Source: a bacterium (GTDB lineage: Bacteria; Sysuimicrobiota; Sysuimicrobiia; Sysuimicrobiales; Segetimicrobiaceae). From it: DNA of 41,678 nt. Under the pieces are notes generated by a model. The model worked only from the letters and a program-made list of their open reading frames with translations. It had not been told where the DNA came from and searched no databases. The position numbers were made by a program, and so were the translations under genes. Location of the stretch: the NCBI GenBank assembly GCA_035691305.1, contig DASSJF010000005.1, forward strand, positions 75,380 through 117,057. The letters are read 5' to 3'. Shown here in pieces: positions 3,413 to 41,678 of this stretch (position 1 is the first letter of the stretch; each line of letters starts with the position of its first letter).

Positions 3413-3797
3413 CGCCACTCGCTCCCCACCGCCCAGGCGACCATCTATGGGCGGGAGATCATCGCGTCCGAAAGGGCCGCTTCCGCGCCGCCGTGAGGTC
3501 CGGTCGTGTCGAAGGAGTGCGAATCGTGTGGTAGAGGTGGTGTGAAGGACGGAAGCGACAGCGTTTTCTCTTTGGAAGTGCCCTTCGGCCCACCCCGGCC
3601 CCACTCCTCCTTCACTGCGGATGTGGCCTGGGTGCCTGCCAAACGGTGACGTCTTCGCGGCGGAACTCGGCGCATCGACGCGCGATCGGGCGCCGCTCAA
3701 CGGAAGCACCGAAGCACGATGTCATTTGGCGATGGTGTCCCGCGTCCGATTTGTTACGCGACCGTCACATCGCTTCTACCAGGAGGTCGCCGCCTGC
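3413..3797. other. intergenic stretch with a phased GT(T/C)AC repeat
   Basis: No frame here has a start signal or recognisable product. Upstream of the cupredoxin, GTTACG at 3753-3758 is followed exactly 11 bases later by GTCACA (3764-3769), with CGTCCG at 3743. The same arrangement occurs at 1759-1786 and a similar one at 21768-21807. Confidence 0.35.
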
Positions 3798-3842
3798 ATG
3801 AGAAGTAACAGGCAAACGATCGTCAAGGAGGAATGCGGGTGA
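3798..3842 (+). CDS. possible 14-residue leader peptide overlapping the cupredoxin start
   Basis: An ATG at 3798, 11 bases after AGGAGG, opens a 14-codon frame (MRSNRQTIVKEECG) whose TGA stop overlaps the GTG start of the cupredoxin gene as GTGA. Such overlaps allow translational coupling. The downstream gene has its own Shine-Dalgarno inside this frame, so the leader may be incidental. Confidence 0.25.
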   Translation: MRSNRQTIVKEECG

Positions 3843-4288
3843 AAACGCGGCTAACCGTGGGCGTGTGCCTGGGATTGGCCTTGCTGCTGGGCACAGGACT
3901 AATGACGTCCGCGCAGACGGCGCCCACACGAGTCATCAAGATTTCGACGATGTCGTTCAAGTTCGATCCCAGCGTCATCACGATGAACGTCGGAGACCGC
4001 GTCACGCTGCAGGTCACCAATAACGACAAAGACCATCCGGGCCGGGCGCACAGCATCGCCTCTCCGTTCTTTCAGAGCCTGAACTACACCGTGAGCGGTG
4101 AGGCGCAACAAGGCGTAGCGAAGGCAGACGGATGGAAGTATATCCTAATCGATAACGGCAAGACCGCCGAGATAACGTTTGTCCCGCAGACGCCGGGGCA
4201 ATTCAATTTCCTGTGCGAGCAGAACAACCATGCCTCGCTCGGCCAGGTGGGCGCGTTCATTGTCTGGCCAGCGGGATACAAGCCGTAG
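3839..4288 (+). CDS. secreted cupredoxin-domain protein (Gln in the axial ligand position)
   Basis: The product has 149 residues. A signal peptide covers about residues 1-26 (hydrophobic CLGLALLLGTGLM, cleavage near TSAQ). The cupredoxin fold follows: FDPSVITMNVGDRVTLQVTN, then the ligand His of GRAHSIA (residue 71), then the loop CEQNNHASLGQVG with Cys 126 and His 131. In plastocyanin/azurin-type sites the residue five positions after this His is the axial Met; here it is Gln 136, as in stellacyanin. It is probably an exported type 1 copper electron carrier, but metal content is inferred. I chose GTG at 3839 rather than ATG at 3833 because AAGGAGG lies 7 bases from the GTG but only 1 base from the ATG. 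Monocistronic. Confidence 0.75.
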   Translation: MKTRLTVGVCLGLALLLGTGLMTSAQTAPTRVIKISTMSFKFDPSVITMNVGDRVTLQVTNNDKDHPGRAHSIASPFFQSLNYTVSGEAQQGVAKADGWKYILIDNGKTAEITFVPQTPGQFNFLCEQNNHASLGQVGAFIVWPAGYKP

Positions 4289-4427
4289 CTCAGCGCATTA
4301 CCCGAAACCGAGGGGCTCGGATCGGCGCGGCGCATTCGAGCATGCCCGCGCGTCGGATGATCGCACGAAGATCGTTCCAATCCCGCGCGAGTCCAGAGCA
4401 GGGAGACCGGCTTCTTGACCGCTGAGC

Positions 4428-4445
4428 GCAGCGGTAAGACTGTCT
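4428..4445. terminator. hairpin between convergent cupredoxin and bioY genes
   Basis: ACCGCTG (4428-4434) and CAGCGGT (4439-4445) pair across a 4-base loop in the 211-base gap between two convergent genes. There is no T-tract, so termination is inferred from position only. Nothing else is recognisable in 4289-4499. Confidence 0.3.
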
Positions 4446-4499
4446 GTCCCTGCCGAACCAGCGCGCCATCGGTTCTGCCCGTAGAGGATATGCGATCGT

Positions 4500-5048
4500 T
4501 TACCCTCGAGGCGTAGGAACAGCGCGCGCGACCGCCGCGGCCGCAATCGTCTTGAGCGCATCGCCGGGCAGGAACGGCACCGCGCCGAGCAAGATCGCGC
4601 GCTTCCACGTGAGGTGCGCGGTCCAGGCCAGCCAGGGCAGTCCAAGGACGTAAATAACCGCCATCCCGGCCGCCGTCGCGAGCCATACATTGCGCCGTCG
4701 CACGGCGCCCGCCAGAAACGCCGCGACGATGAATCCCACGAGGTAGCCGCCGGTCGGCCCGACCAGCACGCCGGCTCCGGCATGCCCTGCGGCGAACACA
4801 GGCACGCCGGCGAGGCCGACCAGCACGTACACTACCATCGCGACTGCGCCGTCGCGGGGGCCGAGGAGCAGTCCCGCCAGCACGGCCATGAGATTGCTAA
4901 GCACCACGGGGACAGGGCTCCCGGGCAGCGGGATCGCGACCTGCGCGGCTACCGCGGTCGCGGCCACCAGCACCCCGATTCGCGCGAGCCGGCGCGTCTT
5001 GCCAGCTACCGATCCCGTAGTTGTTCCAGCAGCACGAACGGTCTGCAC
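4500..5048 (-). CDS. bioY: BioY-type biotin transporter (ECF S component)
   Basis: The 182-residue integral membrane protein has about six hydrophobic segments. Typical BioY features are the loop IPLPGSPVPVVLSNLMAV after the first span, LLLGPRDGAVAMVVYVLVG, VGPTGGYLVGF, and the C-terminal loop PFLPGDALK. BioY binds biotin in the cytoplasmic membrane and works alone or with the EcfA/A'/T energising module, which is not encoded nearby. The frame is open to a TTG at 5090, but the GTG at 5048 has GGAGGAG 6 bases upstream and starts at the normal place. No BirA-type operator or riboswitch was seen upstream; that DNA is an AraC-gene remnant. The kbl/bioF-like gene is 14 kb away and not obviously co-regulated. 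Confidence 0.85.
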   Translation of the reverse strand: MQTVRAAGTTTGSVAGKTRRLARIGVLVAATAVAAQVAIPLPGSPVPVVLSNLMAVLAGLLLGPRDGAVAMVVYVLVGLAGVPVFAAGHAGAGVLVGPTGGYLVGFIVAAFLAGAVRRRNVWLATAAGMAVIYVLGLPWLAWTAHLTWKRAILLGAVPFLPGDALKTIAAAAVARAVPTPRG

Positions 5049-35210: not shown

Positions 35211-35798
35211 GTGACCGGACCTCAGGCCGACATCCAGGAAGTTCTGTTCACGGAAGACCAAATCACCCGCCGCGTGCGCGAACTCGCCGCGGCGATCTCC
35301 CGCGACTACGCAGACCGCGCTCCCCTACTCGTGTCGGTCCTCAAGGGCGCGGTGTACTTCCTCACGGACCTGACGCGCGCGCTCGCCGTGCCGGTCGAGA
35401 TCGACTTCATGGCGATCACCACGTACGGTGGCGCCAAAGCCCAAAGCGGCGTTGTGCGGCTGATCAAGGACCTCGACGTGGAGATCACCGGGCGCGACGT
35501 CGTGCTCGTCGAGGACGTCATCGACACGGGGCTGACCGCGGGCTACCTGCTGCGCCTCCTGCAGGCACGCGCGCCCGCGAGCCTCCGCATCTGCACGCTG
35601 CTCGACCGGCCGTACCGCCGGATCCTCGACACGCTCGACATCGGGTACCGCGGCTTTGAGGTGCCGGACCGCTTCCTGGTCGGCTATGGCCTCGACTATC
35701 GCGAGCGGTACCGCCACCTGCCGTTCATCGGCGTGCTCAAGAACGAGGTGCTGGCCGCCGCGGCAGCCGCCGCGCCCTCCGGTCCTCCCGTGGGGTAG
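35211..35798 (+). CDS. hpt: hypoxanthine phosphoribosyltransferase
   Basis: The 195-residue protein contains SVLKGAVYFLTDLTRAL, the TTYGGAKAQSGVVR flexible loop, the PRPP-binding motif DVVLVEDVIDTGLTAGYLL (Glu-Asp pair), and the C-terminal ALLDRPYRR-like TLLDRPYRRILDTLDI and PDRFLVGYGLDYRERYR. It salvages hypoxanthine and guanine to IMP and GMP. The GTG start at 35211 follows the nuclease-like gene by 5 bases. Its 3' end overlaps the convergent dinB by 62 bases, so the alanine-rich tail is encoded on both strands. Confidence 0.93.
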   Translation: MTGPQADIQEVLFTEDQITRRVRELAAAISRDYADRAPLLVSVLKGAVYFLTDLTRALAVPVEIDFMAITTYGGAKAQSGVVRLIKDLDVEITGRDVVLVEDVIDTGLTAGYLLRLLQARAPASLRICTLLDRPYRRILDTLDIGYRGFEVPDRFLVGYGLDYRERYRHLPFIGVLKNEVLAAAAAAAPSGPPVG

Positions 35799-37035
35799 CG
35801 GCGCCCGGCTCCAGCACGCGCGCCGGTCCGACGGTGCCCTCCCCGAACCGCTCGTTGATCGCATCGACGACGTGATCCACCGGCTTACGGAGCGCCGGCT
35901 CGGCCGCCCCCCGCGCGCCCCCCGCGCCGGCCCCACCGAAGAGATCGGTCTGCGCCGCCGCGGGCCGCTCGAGGCCGCTGACCGACACCCCGACGAGACG
36001 CACGCGCCGCGTCAACGTTCCGAGCCGCTTCCAAAGATCGGTGACCGCTTCCGAGATCCGGCCGCCGTGGTCCGTCGCCGCGGGCAGCGTGAGGCGCCGC
36101 GTCACGGTGTCGAACGGTTCGAAGCGCACCTTGAGCACGACGACGCGGCCCGCGAGGCCCTCGGCGCGCAGGCTGTGGGCCACGTCCTCGCACGCCGCGC
36201 GGAGTGTACGCGCGAGCAGGTCGCGGTCGCGCGTGTCGTGGTCGAAGGTCGTTTCGCGGCCGATGGATTTCGCCTCGCCGCCCGGATCGACGGGGCGGTC
36301 GTCCTCCCCGCGGCTGAGGGCCGCGAGCCGCTCGGCGGGAAACCCCAGCATCGCCCGCAGCGCGGAGACCGGTGTCCGCCGCAGCGCGCCGATCGTCGTG
36401 ATGCCCCGGCCCTCGAGCCGCGCGCGCGTCTCCGGCCCGACGCCCCACAGCACGCCGACCGGCAGCGGGTCGAGCTCGGCCCGCACGCCGCTCGCGGGGA
36501 TCCGGCGCACGCCGTCGGGCTTCGCCAGTTCCGAGGCGACCTTCGCGAGAAACTTGTTCGGCGCGACACCGACCGACGCGGGCAGCCCGAGCCGCACCCG
36601 GATCCGCCGCCGGATCGCGCGCCCGAACCGCACGCCTGTCTCCGTCTGCTCGGCCGCTCCGTGCGGCGCATCCTCCGGTGCGGCCGGCACGGGGCAGCCG
36701 GTCAGATCGAGAAAGGCTTCGTCCACCGAGATCGGTTCGATCTGCGGCGTGAAGGTCTCGAGCAGATCAAAGAGCCGCGCCGATTCGGCCCGGTAGCGCG
36801 CCATGTCGGGTGGGAGGAAAACGGCGCTCGGACACAGCGTGAACGCGCGGCGCGACGGCATCGCCGAGTGAATGCCGTACCGCCGCGCTTCGTACGATGC
36901 GGCCGCCACCACGCCGCGTGCATGCGGGCCGGCGCCGACGACGACCGGCCGGCCGCGATACTCGGGACGGTCGCGCACCTCGATCGCCGCGAAGAACGCG
37001 TCCATGTCGACGTGCGCGATGATGCGCTCGCTCAC
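35737..37035 (-). CDS. dinB: DNA polymerase IV (Y-family)
   Basis: The 432-residue protein contains the catalytic IIAHVDMDAFFAAIEVRD and PISVDEAFLDLTG (metal-binding acidic residues), VGVAPNKFLAKVASELAKPDG, and the helix-hairpin-helix VGPETRARLEGRGITTIGAL. QTDLFGG near residue 386 is a sliding-clamp-binding motif. It copies across damaged bases with low fidelity. The start is a GTG at 37035 with no strong Shine-Dalgarno. Its Arg-rich C-terminus lies in the overlap with hpt. No LexA box was seen in the divergent region toward aconitase. Confidence 0.94.
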   Translation of the reverse strand: MSERIIAHVDMDAFFAAIEVRDRPEYRGRPVVVGAGPHARGVVAAASYEARRYGIHSAMPSRRAFTLCPSAVFLPPDMARYRAESARLFDLLETFTPQIEPISVDEAFLDLTGCPVPAAPEDAPHGAAEQTETGVRFGRAIRRRIRVRLGLPASVGVAPNKFLAKVASELAKPDGVRRIPASGVRAELDPLPVGVLWGVGPETRARLEGRGITTIGALRRTPVSALRAMLGFPAERLAALSRGEDDRPVDPGGEAKSIGRETTFDHDTRDRDLLARTLRAACEDVAHSLRAEGLAGRVVVLKVRFEPFDTVTRRLTLPAATDHGGRISEAVTDLWKRLGTLTRRVRLVGVSVSGLERPAAAQTDLFGGAGAGGARGAAEPALRKPVDHVVDAINERFGEGTVGPARVLEPGAATPREDRRARRLPRRPAPRS

Positions 37036-37142: not shown

Positions 37143-37178
37143 CTGTTGGGTTCGGATCCCATCTGGGGGGCTTTCCGC

Positions 37179-39455
37179 ATGGTCACGATCGAGTCGACCG
37201 CCGCGATGGCGGCCGCGGTCTACGCACGCATGGAACGGACGCTCGGCGTGGTCCGGCGCCGCCTCGGCCGGCCGCTCACGCTGGCGGATAAGGTGCTGCT
37301 CGGCCATCTCGACGATCCCGACTCGCAGGAGATGCGGCCGGGCCACAGCTACCTACTGCTGCGGCCCGACCGCGTCGTCCTTCAGGATGTACTGGGGCAG
37401 ACGGCGATGCTGCAGTTCATGCAGACACGCCGCAGCGCCGTGGCCGTGCCGACCACGATCCACTGCGACCATCTGATTCAGGCCCGGGTCGAAGGCCGGG
37501 CGGATCTCCAGGCCTCCATCGCTGAAAACTCGGAGGTCTACGACTTTCTCCGGTCCGCGGCGGCGAAGTACGGTGCGGGGTTCTGGGGGCCGGGCGCCGG
37601 CATCATCCACCAAGTCGTTCTCGAACACTACTCGTTTCCCGGCGAGCTGATCATCGGCACCGACTCGCACACTCCGAACGCCGGCGGGCTTGGCGCCTGC
37701 GCGGTGGGTGTGGGCGGCGCGGACGCCGTCGAGGTGATGGCCGGCCTGCCGTGGGAGGTACTCTACCCGAAGCACATCGCCGTCTACCTGACCGGTGAAA
37801 TGAGCGGCTGGACGGCGCCGAAGGACGTGATCCTCTACGTCGCGGGCCAGCTCACCGTCGCGGGCGGTACCAACGCGATCGTCGAGTACATCGGCCCCGG
37901 CGCGCGCACGATCAGCGCGACCGGCAAGGCCACGATCACAAACATGGGAGCGGAGCTCGGCGCGACGACGTCGATGTTTCCGTACGACGAGCGGATGGCG
38001 ACGTATCTGCGGGCCACCGGCCGCGCGGAGCTCGTCGACCCCGCCCGCACGCATCAGCATCTGCTGGCACCGGACACGGAAGTGGAAGCCGACCCCGAGC
38101 GCTACTACGACCGGGTGGTCCGGCTCGACCTGTCGGCGCTCGAGCCCTACGTCGTCGGACCGCACTCGCCGGATCGGGCGCGGCCGGTCTCCAAGCTCGC
38201 CGCCGAAGTCCGGGACACCAAGAACGAGTTCCTCGACAAGATCTCCGCGGCGCTCATCGGCAGCTGCACGAACTCGTCCTACGAGGACATGAGCCGCGCG
38301 GCCGACGTGGCGGAGCAGGCGCGCGCGCACGGACTCAAAGCGGCCGTACCGTTCCTCGTGACGCCCGGCTCCGAACAGGTCCGGGCGACGATCGAGCGCG
38401 ACGGCCAGATGCATTCACTGACCGAGATCAAGGCAACGGTCCTCGCGAACGCCTGCGGCCCGTGCATCGGACAGTGGCGGCGGGCCAGCGCGGAAGCGAC
38501 GGTCCCGAACACGATCGTGACCTCCTATAATCGCAACTTCCCCCGCCGCAACGACGGGCAACCCACGACGATGAATTTCATCGGCAGTCCGGAGCTGGTC
38601 ACGGCGTTCGCGCTCGCCGGCCGGCTGTCGTTCAATCCTCTCACGGACACCCTGACCGGCGCGGACGGGAAGCCCTTCCGGCTGCGCGCCCCGGCCCCGG
38701 CGCCCGAGGTGCCGTCCACGCCTTTCGACCCCGGCCGCATCACCTACGTGGCGCCGCCCGCCGATGGCAGCCCGGTGGAGCTGAAGGTCGACCCGAAGAG
38801 CGAACGCCTGCAGCTCATGGAACCCTGGCCGGCGTGGGACGGGAAAGATTTTGCGGACATGCCTATTCTATTAAAGGCGAAGGGCAAGACCACGACCGAC
38901 GCCATCTCCCCGGCCGGCCCGTGGCTGCGCTACCGGGGCCATCTCGACAAGTTCAGCGACAACGTGTTCTCAGGCGCGATCAACGCCTTCACCGGTGAGG
39001 CGGGCAAAGTCCGCAACCTCATCACCGCGGAGGCCGGCCAGCCGGTCTCCGCGGTGGCGCGCGACTACAATGCGCGCGGGCTCCGCTGGGTCGTGATCGG
39101 CGACTCCAACTACGGCGAGGGTAGCAGCCGCGAGCACGCGGCGCTGTCGCCGCGCCTTTTGGGGGCCGCGGCCGTGATCGCACGCACCTTCGCGCGCATT
39201 CATGAGTCGAACCTCAAGAAGCAGGGCGTACTGGCCCTCACGCTGGCCGAGCCGGGCGACTACGACCGTTTCCGCGAGGACGATCGCGTGAGCCTGGTCG
39301 GTCTGGAGGCCATGGCGGCGGGCAAGCCGGTGGAGTGCCGGATCCGTCACGCCGACGGTACGACCGAGACGCTCTGGCTCAACCACTCGTACAGCACCTC
39401 GCAGCTGGAGTGGTTCCGGAAGGGATCGGCGCTGAATCTGTTCCACGGGCACTAG
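37179..39455 (+). CDS. aconitate hydratase (mitochondrial-type)
   Basis: The 758-residue protein has the full aconitase layout. Active-site and cluster features are HCDHLIQA, GIIHQVVLEHYSFPG, IIGTDSHTPNAGGLGACAVG, then GSCTNSSYEDM (first cluster Cys) and NACGPCIGQW (CxxC, the other two), IVTSYNRNFPRRNDG, and the swivelling domain with IGDSNYGEGSSREHAALSPR. It isomerises citrate to isocitrate through a [4Fe-4S] cluster in the TCA cycle. Length and motifs fit the mitochondrial-type group, not AcnB. The ATG at 37179 follows GGGGGG by about 8 bases. It is monocistronic, ending at a bidirectional hairpin. Confidence 0.94.
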   Translation: MVTIESTAAMAAAVYARMERTLGVVRRRLGRPLTLADKVLLGHLDDPDSQEMRPGHSYLLLRPDRVVLQDVLGQTAMLQFMQTRRSAVAVPTTIHCDHLIQARVEGRADLQASIAENSEVYDFLRSAAAKYGAGFWGPGAGIIHQVVLEHYSFPGELIIGTDSHTPNAGGLGACAVGVGGADAVEVMAGLPWEVLYPKHIAVYLTGEMSGWTAPKDVILYVAGQLTVAGGTNAIVEYIGPGARTISATGKATITNMGAELGATTSMFPYDERMATYLRATGRAELVDPARTHQHLLAPDTEVEADPERYYDRVVRLDLSALEPYVVGPHSPDRARPVSKLAAEVRDTKNEFLDKISAALIGSCTNSSYEDMSRAADVAEQARAHGLKAAVPFLVTPGSEQVRATIERDGQMHSLTEIKATVLANACGPCIGQWRRASAEATVPNTIVTSYNRNFPRRNDGQPTTMNFIGSPELVTAFALAGRLSFNPLTDTLTGADGKPFRLRAPAPAPEVPSTPFDPGRITYVAPPADGSPVELKVDPKSERLQLMEPWPAWDGKDFADMPILLKAKGKTTTDAISPAGPWLRYRGHLDKFSDNVFSGAINAFTGEAGKVRNLITAEAGQPVSAVARDYNARGLRWVVIGDSNYGEGSSREHAALSPRLLGAAAVIARTFARIHESNLKKQGVLALTLAEPGDYDRFREDDRVSLVGLEAMAAGKPVECRIRHADGTTETLWLNHSYSTSQLEWFRKGSALNLFHGH

Positions 39456-39528: not shown

Positions 39529-40317
39529 TCAGCGCTGGCAGCGCGGACAGAAGTAGGCCGTCCGCCCGCCGATCTTCGCGGTTCGCAGGAGACCGCCGCA
39601 GCGGGGGCAGGTCCCTCCCCGCCTTCGGGCTTCGACAAGATCGCCGGCCGGCGCGCCGCGGCGCGAGAGCGCCGCGATCCCCCGGCGGAGCGCCGCGCGA
39701 ATCGAGCGATGGAGGGCGCGAATCTGAGGCGGGCGCAGCGTGCGCAGCATCCGCGCGGGGTGCAGGCGCGCCTGAAATAGAATCTCGTCGGCGTAGATGT
39801 TGCCGATGCCGGCGATCAAGTCCTGACGCAGCAAGAACGCCTTGAGCGTTGCGCGCCGGCCAGCGATCAGGGCGCGCAGGCGGTCCGGCGAGAACGCCGC
39901 GGTCAACGGCTCCACGCCGAGCGCGCGCAGTCCGGGAACCTTCGCCAGGTGACCCACGCGGACGAGATCCACGTGGCCGAACCGCCGCTGGTCCACGAAC
40001 CGCATGTCGTCCGGTCCAAAGCCGACGACGAGCCGCGTCTGCGGACGAAAGACCGCGCGCCTCGGCACAACGACGAAATCTCCGGTCATGCGCAAGTGCC
40101 CCACCATGACGAACGCGCCGCTCAGCGGAAAGATCAAGTACTTGCCCCGGCGACCGACCGTCAGGACCCGGCGGCCACGGAGCGTGCGCGCGAACGTGCG
40201 CGGTGCGGGGGAGCGCACGACGGACGGATCACGGACGGCGACGCGCGACACACGCCGGCCGCGGATGCGCCGGCGGAGGTAGCGCGCGGCCGATTCGACG
40301 TCCGGCAGTTCGGGCAC
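39529..40317 (-). CDS. mutM: formamidopyrimidine-DNA glycosylase
   Basis: The 262-residue protein starts MPELPDVESA, with the catalytic Pro 2 and Glu 3. VGRRGKYLIF supplies Lys 59, VGHLRMTGDF is the conserved strand, RFGHVDLVR and LIAGIGNIYADEILF form the helix-two-turn-helix, and CPRCGG plus YFCPRCQ make the C-terminal zinc finger. It removes oxidised purines such as 8-oxoguanine. The third position normally Glu in PELPE is kept; the sixth is Asp instead of Glu. The GTG start has a weak Shine-Dalgarno. It converges with aconitase. Confidence 0.93.
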   Translation of the reverse strand: MPELPDVESAARYLRRRIRGRRVSRVAVRDPSVVRSPAPRTFARTLRGRRVLTVGRRGKYLIFPLSGAFVMVGHLRMTGDFVVVPRRAVFRPQTRLVVGFGPDDMRFVDQRRFGHVDLVRVGHLAKVPGLRALGVEPLTAAFSPDRLRALIAGRRATLKAFLLRQDLIAGIGNIYADEILFQARLHPARMLRTLRPPQIRALHRSIRAALRRGIAALSRRGAPAGDLVEARRRGGTCPRCGGLLRTAKIGGRTAYFCPRCQR

Positions 40318-40483
40318 GCGAATTCGTTCAACGGGCGACGCGCCGGATCATCCCCGGCCGGGGCTTCACAACTCCGAAGGGCCGTTCACAAAGTCCGCAT
40401 GGTTTCCGCACCGCTTTCCCACACCGCGTTCACGAGCCGGCGGTATCGTGAGGGCAGGCAAGCAGGCTGAGGAGGGTTGAGCC

Positions 40484-41678
40484 GTGCGAAGCGCTATTGC
40501 CGTCGTGATCGCCGTGTTCGTCTCACTTCTTGGGCTCAACGGCGTCGGCCACGCACAAACCGCCGCGGAAATCCAAGGAACGCTCGAGACCGTCGACTGC
40601 CAGAACGGCGCGGTGACGACGCTCGACGCTTTGGGCAACACAGAAACCGTCTACGCCTCCGATTCGACGGCGGTCGCGGTGGAATCGTCAAGCGTGGACT
40701 TCTGCTCGCTCAATGGATACGTCGGCGCGCCCGTGGACGCCTGGGTCGTTCCGTACGACAACGAGTTCGTCGCCACCCAGATCGACGTGACCGGCCCCGT
40801 CCCGGTCCTGGCGGCGACCCAGACCGCGGTCGCACCGATGCCGATCGTCGGCGCGGTGCTCGGCACCATCCTGGTCGGCGGGCTGCTCTATCTGCTCGCG
40901 CACGACAGCGCCGCCTACTACCGCTATCCGTACTACGGCGCGTACTACCATCACTACTACAGCGCGTCGTACCGACCGTACACCGGCTGGTATCCTGCAT
41001 CCCCGCCGATCATCTACGTCGCGACGCCGATCGTCGGCACGGTCCTCGGGATCGTGGCGGTGAATAACTACCAGTACCTCGCCGTCCGAGATTACGACGG
41101 AGCGTACCGCCGGTACCCCTATTACGGGCCGTACCGGTCGTACTACTATCACCCGACCTACCGCTACTACAGCGGCACGTACGTCAACATCTACACACAG
41201 GCGCCGGTCGCAGTGGGCGATTCGCACTGGGACGCGCCTCGATACCAGATGCAGCAGTGGCAGCGGACGGTGACTTCGCGGCCCAACGCATGGTCGGCGC
41301 CGCATCGTTCGATGCCGGCGACCTACCAACGGCCGCAGTGGCAGCCGCAGTCCCAGCCGGTATTTCAGCGTCCGGCCCCGGCGCCGCAGCCGCAACCGAC
41401 GTATCAGCGGCCCCAGTGGCAACAGCAACCGCAGGCGCAGCCCACCTACCAGCACCCGCAACCGCAACCGACGTATCAGCGGCCCCAGTGGCAGCAGCCG
41501 CCGCAGGCGCAGCCCACCTACCCGCGCCCGCAGCCGCAGCCGCAACCGACATATCAGCGGCCCCAGTGGCAACAGCAACCGCAGGCGCAGCCCACCTACC
41601 AGCGCCCACAGCCGCAACCGCAACCGACCTATCAGCGGCCCCAGTGGCAGCAGCCGCCGCAGGCGCAGCCCACCTACC
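40484..41678 (+). CDS. secreted Tyr-rich, Pro/Gln-repeat protein (runs off the right edge)
   Basis: GTG 40484, with GAGGAGG about 8 bases upstream, opens a frame still open at the right edge (398 codons). A signal peptide (residues 1 to about 25, ending VGHAQ) precedes a small domain with two Cys (to about residue 120). A hydrophobic segment (PIVGAVLGTILVGGLLYLLA) follows, then a region rich in Tyr (YYRYPYYGAYYHHYYS). From about residue 280 it is Pro/Gln-rich, with repeats of 24-26 residues built on PTYQRPQWQQ. It looks like a surface or extracellular matrix-like protein. No known family was recognised. Its end and any sorting signal lie outside the window. Confidence 0.6.
   Translation, partial: MRSAIAVVIAVFVSLLGLNGVGHAQTAAEIQGTLETVDCQNGAVTTLDALGNTETVYASDSTAVAVESSSVDFCSLNGYVGAPVDAWVVPYDNEFVATQIDVTGPVPVLAATQTAVAPMPIVGAVLGTILVGGLLYLLAHDSAAYYRYPYYGAYYHHYYSASYRPYTGWYPASPPIIYVATPIVGTVLGIVAVNNYQYLAVRDYDGAYRRYPYYGPYRSYYYHPTYRYYSGTYVNIYTQAPVAVGDSHWDAPRYQMQQWQRTVTSRPNAWSAPHRSMPATYQRPQWQPQSQPVFQRPAPAPQPQPTYQRPQWQQQPQAQPTYQHPQPQPTYQRPQWQQPPQAQPTYPRPQPQPQPTYQRPQWQQQPQAQPTYQRPQPQPQPTYQRPQWQQPPQAQPTY
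41396..41678 (+). repeat. tandem 72-78-bp coding repeats
   Basis: Repeat units start at 41396, 41468, 41546 and 41624 (periods 72, 78 and 78 bp). Units alternate between QWQQQPQ and QWQQPPQ forms, a two-unit higher-order pattern of 150-156 bp. The array continues past the window edge, and all length changes are multiples of three. Confidence 0.8.

Follow-up and report, generated by a model that had tools for sequence, protein, structure and literature searches.

Several described groups of proteins resemble parts of the gene product considered here. CusF and SilF are periplasmic Cu/Ag chaperones, with His and Met as the copper ligands of CusF. SlyB and the 17 kDa antigen belong to glycine-zipper outer-membrane or lipoprotein families, and DUF5666 (PF18914) is a small exported β domain. 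One common type of S-layer protein carries a wall-anchoring SLH domain. Tyr/Pro-rich low-complexity sequence has been proposed to serve cohesion in mussel foot protein, Bacillus CotT and the Tyr-rich oocyst-wall proteins of coccidia. The self-assembly domain of the Viridibacillus arvi S-layer protein is reported to form the four-fold axis of that S-layer (PMC11410804); this domain, OB-like in fold and exported and self-assembling in its setting, is part of a 1016-residue S-layer protein.

The window, meaning the whole stretch of 41,678 nucleotides analysed, ends in a gene whose product shares features with these groups. The head of its product has the OB fold of CusF and SilF and is likened to the V. 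arvi domain by fold alone. It is, like DUF5666, a small β domain of a protein that appears to be exported, but differs in having two invariant cysteines and a Tyr-rich and repeat tail, and PF18914 matched neither the window protein nor the members of a 13-member scan (A2). With the glycine-zipper families the protein shares probable export and a GxxxG-rich hydrophobic stretch; in contrast to them, it shows no lipobox by eye, and its zipper occurs together with Tyr blocks and with a Cys cap. No glycine-zipper Pfam family matched the window protein or the scanned members. The likeness to the mussel, CotT and oocyst-wall proteins is one of composition only, and the Pfam scan found no SLH domain in the window protein, SLH domains sitting in other genes of the host. 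As in hypervariable genes with intragenic repeats, the array is in frame and its unit number differs between relatives. The family is a lineage-restricted variant of repeat-tailed exported proteins, of which we found no account among the open-licence papers listed as matches on the phylum, DUF5666, Tyr-rich repeats and glycine zippers. Our leading reading, which we hold tentatively, is that the gene belongs to a lineage-specific family whose members are exported scaffolds of the envelope or surface in a diderm soil bacterium, with the repeat as an in-frame adjustable spacer.

A truncated repeat gene at a contig end

A first-pass annotation had described a gene that runs off the edge of the window without a stop, and this holds: in the ORF list, the frame from 40484 stays open up to the last base. 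The window (G000:C5:75380-117057) and its contig C5 (117057 bases) end at the same base, so the absent stop reflects the contig end, and the gene is incomplete because of an assembly break inside the repeats. Searched against its own genome assembly, the array DNA matched only itself; the missing 3′ end is therefore not recoverable from this assembly. The frame is taken as a real gene because it has a Shine-Dalgarno-like site (Table 1), its core has a third-position GC content (0.85) like that of the neighbouring genes (0.89 and 0.85), and the core gives a dN/dS of 0.18 (dS 0.90, 271 codons) against the orthologue in a second genome of the genus, G002. Judged from these substitution rates, the core is under purifying selection. 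The orthologous locus (G002:C35) is syntenic, with aconitase, fpg and the repeat gene in that order. Adjoining the aconitase-type gene in the window is a minus-strand ORF (35737-37035) that we take, by recognition only, to be DNA polymerase IV (DinB)-like.

Table 1. Features of the repeat gene and its neighbours, in window positions
Feature	Position	Strand	Detail or basis
Aconitase-type gene (presumed, by sequence recognition)	37146..39455	+	ORF; order as in G002 locus
Fpg/MutM-type DNA glycosylase, divergent neighbour (presumed, by sequence recognition)	39529..40317	-	ORF; same neighbour at G002 orthologue locus
Shine-Dalgarno-like GAGGAGGG	40469..40476	+	7 bases upstream of GTG start; sequence
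Repeat-protein gene	40484..41677	+	398 codons seen; 3′ end cut by contig end
Signal-peptide-like N-terminus, aa 1-24, then QT	40484..40555	+	Read from sequence
OB-fold head, aa 25-105	40556..40798	+	AlphaFold2, fold matches and invariant columns
Gly-rich hydrophobic stretch 1 (IVGAVLGTILVGGLLYLLAH)	40844..40903	+	Mean hydropathy 2.34 over 19 residues
Tyr-rich block 1 (YYRYPYYGAYYHHYY...), aa 141-172	40904..40999	+	12 Tyr in 32 residues
Hydrophobic stretch 2, copy of stretch 1	41000..41083	+	Mean hydropathy 2.09
Tyr-rich block 2 (YRRYPYYGPYRSYYYHPTYRYY...), aa 201-232	41084..41179	+	12 Tyr in 32 residues; duplication
Pro/Gln-rich tandem array, cut by contig end	41383..41678	+	Repeat search and unit reading

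An array of alternating Pro/Gln units

The visible tail alternates between units of the form PTYQRPQWQQ(Q/P)PQAQ and PTY(Q/P)(R/H)PQPQ(PQ), and its final 98 residues contain 38 Gln and 29 Pro. Counted from one PTY to the next, the units measure 15, 9, 15, 11, 15, 11 and 15 residues, with an eighth unit cut, which bears out the earlier claim that two Pro/Gln unit types alternate; the lengths found here are 15 and 9–11 residues. The repeat search returned a period of 78 bp (3.9 copies, 88% match, score 441), the length of one pair, and a period of 150 bp (1.9 copies, 94% match, score 530), the length of two pairs; the best repeat score among 200 codon-shuffled tails was 115. These periods suggest copying of pairs and of pairs of pairs, as expected from the expansion by pair duplication that had been proposed.

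The G002 orthologue is closed at 514 aa and has 15 PTY units and a Cys pair at its end. Its PTY spacing is 15, 12, 15, 12, 15, 12, 12, 9, 15, 12, 15, 12, 12 and 12 residues, so that the alternation is partly broken. With at least 8 units in the window and 15 in G002, the unit count is not constant between species of one genus. Within the window array, long units share 94.1% identity (3 units; the pattern dropped the last of the four 45-bp units); the value is 97.3% within the G002 array (5 units) and 77.6% between the two. As identity is higher within arrays than between species, each array seems to have been homogenised after the two species diverged. In all 20 of the 20 family members with strong arrays, the best period is divisible by 3. 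The window array is probably longer in reality than the part that is seen, and we predict that its gene also ends in a Cys pair.

A small family with variable tails

An alignment of the family (A1) matched relatives in all 12 genomes of the window's bacterial family and in none of 31 others of the class. Across 386 genomes it matched 14, namely these 12 together with G084 (E 3.5e-5, positions 1-76) and G341 (E 9.5e-4, positions 6-75), two matches that are confined to the signal and a portion of the head and that we take as weak or chance. The window protein as a query found no relatives in 18 genomes of other groups. When named genomes were scanned with two YRYPYYG-type peptide patterns, 19 stretches matched and 5 encoded a relative. 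All five come from MAGs labelled 'Bacillota bacterium' (Centralia) or 'Terrabacteria group bacterium ANGP1', which we equate, as an assumption, with CSP1-3/Sysuimicrobiota. Soil lineages of this kind are described in the phylum paper (PMC11604079).

The two-module architecture discussed below was found in 9/12 genomes of the family; of the other three, G008 carries a copy with one module, G010 a short copy with the zipper, and G005 nothing but head-type copies. Strong Pro/Gln-type or Pro/Asn-type arrays are present in eleven copies, and their units differ except between close orthologues. Other members have Gly/Asn, Gly/Thr, Gly/Lys/Asp or Ala/Ser/Gly tails behind a related head. In this small, unnamed family, a lineage-specific repeat tail follows a folded head and a Tyr-rich middle. 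The member table (n=54) was built from hits and omits the copy on G001:C70. That same-genus copy (L036, minus strand, about 3497-4501 and 4036-4386) is split over three frames and is either a decayed gene or the product of assembly errors.

Members often lie at contig ends. This was the case for 6/13 two-module Pro/Gln copies, compared to 1.56 expected from contig density (P 0.001), and for 5/7 Gly-tailed copies, compared to 0.34 expected (P 7e-6), a group picked after the fact, once its members had been noticed at contig starts. Contig-end positions were likewise found for 9/20 strong-array members and 3/34 of the rest (p 0.005). The expected values rest on genome sizes that were rounded and on genes assumed to be 1400 and 900 bases long, the counts are made without the G001:C70 copy, and the 13 Pro/Gln copies are counted without the one-module copy on G008:C166. 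The excess indicates that the window's edge is a recurrent effect and that such arrays end contigs. Unit counts may be collapsed where an array meets a contig end. Because arrays break assembly, genes of this family are often truncated in the genomes examined, and cataloguers of this phylum's exported proteins will meet fragments. Five frames at contig starts (L056-L060; G009:C4, G007:C39, G005:C88, G002:C1 and G002:C8) encode a related head with Gly-rich arrays (GGNN, GGTT), and all five leave the contig inside the Gly-rich array.

A duplicated middle and a terminal cysteine pair

Between head and tail lie two modules, each composed of a Gly-rich hydrophobic stretch and then a Tyr-rich YYRYPYYG block. 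The two copies are identical at 27/51 aligned residues with a spacing of 63 residues, and the duplication scores 136, compared to a maximum of 61 in 500 shuffles. The 63-residue spacing recurs in all 9 scored copies of the 10 given; the unscored tenth, L045, has a second motif, YPYFG, that lies outside the pattern. G123, G127 and G133 of the first stretch are invariant among the aligned copies. A Tyr/His-rich stretch had been noted here, and Tyr is indeed abundant (24 in 64 residues), but His is minor (3 of 64). AlphaFold2 modelled the middle poorly, with ten-residue means of 28 to 59 past model residue 80, and confidence across the core model was restricted to the head. By hydropathy the hydrophobic stretches would be helices, whereas the AlphaFold2 model places them in low-confidence strands; a transmembrane reading of the stretches was not confirmed by the model.

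A C-terminal Cx(3-10)C pair is present in 30 of the 42 members with a visible C-terminus, and its distribution follows that of the zipper-like stretch. All 30 closed members with the stretch carry the pair (28 by the strict pattern and 2 by eye, L031 and L047, whose stretch the strict zipper pattern missed), compared to none of the 12 closed members that have no such stretch. Fisher's test on the strict counts (28, 0, 2, 12) gives p 8e-9, a value that overstates the case because the pattern was defined with the sequences already in view and because the members are related. Hydropathy alone gives a weaker link, with the pair in 30/37 closed members that have a late hydrophobic window and in 0/5 that have none. 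The distance from zipper to Cys pair ranges from 17 to 365 residues (28 members measured; the values for L037 and L042 are too short, the pattern having caught the second copy of the stretch). Members with one stretch and members with two carry the pair alike. In a simple inner-membrane span, these two kinds of members would have C-termini on opposite sides, which fits one disulfide role badly.

These results bear on whether the tail matters at all. If it had arisen neutrally, through replication slippage in a GC-rich disordered stretch, and were tolerated because it is in frame while only head and middle matter, one could understand why its units are unrelated between most lineages next to a conserved core, why related heads also bear Gly-rich or Ala/Ser/Gly-rich arrays, and why some members have almost no tail. 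However, the Cys cap persists whatever the length of the tail, and the strong arrays are all in frame, though this would be expected of any tolerated coding repeat. We consider a neutral tail rather improbable and continue with the scaffold reading, in which the tail is an adjustable spacer.

Envelope setting and proposed role

The envelope of the host was assessed from marker genes. Omp85 and SLH proteins were each found in all 12 genomes of the family (7/14 and 4/14 controls, respectively), and VKOR was found in 9/12 and not found in 3/12 (3/14 controls). The Spo0A effector domain (Spo0A_C) was matched in 0/12, and of the 14 controls only Bacillus subtilis matched. Together, the presence of Omp85, SLH proteins and VKOR and the result of 0/12 for the Spo0A effector domain point to a diderm that is probably not a spore former. 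SLH proteins are reported to serve outer-membrane tethering by OmpM in Terrabacteria (PMC10628300), and the host envelope is probably of this OmpM kind. A spore-coat role for the protein was set aside, as Spo0A_C was found in 0/12 genomes. Tyrosinase (PF00264) was likewise matched in 0/12 genomes of the family, and no control genome matched it either, so this result carries no weight on tyrosinase-made cross-links.

Such a setting could also accommodate a tether, from membrane to wall or from membrane to outer membrane, in which the stretches anchor the protein, the tail spans the periplasm in the manner of Pro-rich spacers and the Cys cap docks at its far end, so that the protein would never be outside. 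The spacer-like range of stretch-to-Cys distances given above and the diderm envelope with its SLH proteins are consistent with this arrangement. A tether should, however, have a roughly constant length within a species, and paralogues within G002 differ widely (44, 65, 134 and 365 residues); nor did the Pfam scan find a wall- or outer-membrane-binding domain in the window protein. We regard a tether as unlikely.

For the preferred envelope or surface scaffold, we propose the following arrangement. The protein would be exported and have a folded, OB-type head. The zipper-like stretch and the aromatic Tyr/Arg block, duplicated, would probably hold the protein in or against a membrane or pack it into a scaffold. 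The Pro/Gln tail that follows the modules is probably disordered and, in closed relatives, has the Cys pair at its end. This tail may act as a spacer or a sticky arm, its length shifting by in-frame gain or loss of repeat pairs, with the Cys cap kept while tail length changes. The architecture is well supported; export, disulfide formation, location and scaffold function are what we infer from it. The first-pass annotation was right in what it observed: the open frame and the alternation stand, and the periods are those that pair duplication would give. Its guess of a surface or matrix role, which may apply, was a reasonable one. A bolder version of the scaffold, which seems improbable as a whole, is modular: in one bacterial family of Sysuimicrobiota, a common OB head would be combined with interchangeable low-complexity arrays (Pro/Gln/Tyr, Gly/Asn, Gly/Thr, Gly/Lys/Asp or Ala/Ser/Gly), and the zipper branch would add the Tyr module and an obligatory disulfide cap, to yield length-tunable, disulfide-locked envelope polymers. 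To our knowledge, such polymers are not known from any diderm Terrabacteria. The analysis gives a shape to a protein family that has no Pfam or NCBIfam model of its own, in a phylum that is abundant, uncultured and found in soil, and the pairing of the zipper-like stretch with the terminal Cys pair offers a testable handle on the role of the tail.

The signal-like start and the OB-fold head

All 11 of the 11 aligned full-length copies have a signal-like start, in which L16, G17, G20, G22, A24 and Q25 are invariant, and this start suggests export of the protein. Domains of the Cu_amine_oxidN1 type are known from extracellular proteins. In one relative (L039:3527-5173, in G007), such a domain is present in full (PF07833, E 4.3e-35, residues 61-168) and separates the signal part from the OB head. 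Export is favoured because of the signal-like starts and because of this domain ahead of the head in one relative.

The AlphaFold2 model of residues 25-109, made from a six-sequence input, has a mean pLDDT of 88.1 and a pTM of 0.76. It consists of five strands and a helix, which precedes the fourth strand. Two head cysteines, C39 and C74, are invariant among the aligned copies. Structural comparison gave CusF as the best match (Z 10.0, rmsd 1.8 over 68 residues, 16% identity), followed by the V. arvi S-layer self-assembly domain (9FS9; Z 8.7, rmsd 3.0 over 78 residues) and other OB proteins, among them a tRNA synthetase (Z 8.3), OBody (8.2), SilF (8.0) and PilY2 (8.0). Unrelated OB proteins come within one Z unit of the S-layer match, which amounts to a tie; sharing an OB fold shows no function. 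Sequence searches of the PDB gave no significant relatives (best E 0.15). The window protein had no Pfam or NCBIfam match over cut-off, the sole NCBIfam match, DMT_1, being far under it (13.9 of 50 bits, E 0.026).

A metal-handling periplasmic protein, with a CusF-like head and the Tyr/His and Cys residues as extra ligands, is highly improbable: the fold comparison does place CusF first and SilF among the better matches, and one family member weakly matches Pfam CusF_Ec (E 0.16, not significant), but the window head (aa 25-105) contains 0 His and 0 Met and, unlike CusF and SilF, is joined to a large extra middle and tail. Given the aromatic blocks and a tail that is capped and varies in length, we favour the envelope or surface scaffold over a metal chaperone.

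Among seven distant relatives scanned, three gave sub-threshold DUF5666 matches, one of them with the head. This is L066 (E 0.0059, 17.3 of 27 bits); L070 (E 0.0027) and L062 (E 0.052) match with a second domain and not with the head, also below the 27-bit cut-off. L067 holds a TAA inside its matched stretch and was read only downstream of it. L062, together with L064 and L065, has a related head followed by a long Ala/Ser/Gly tail of the GNVSGGAGVSAGG type.
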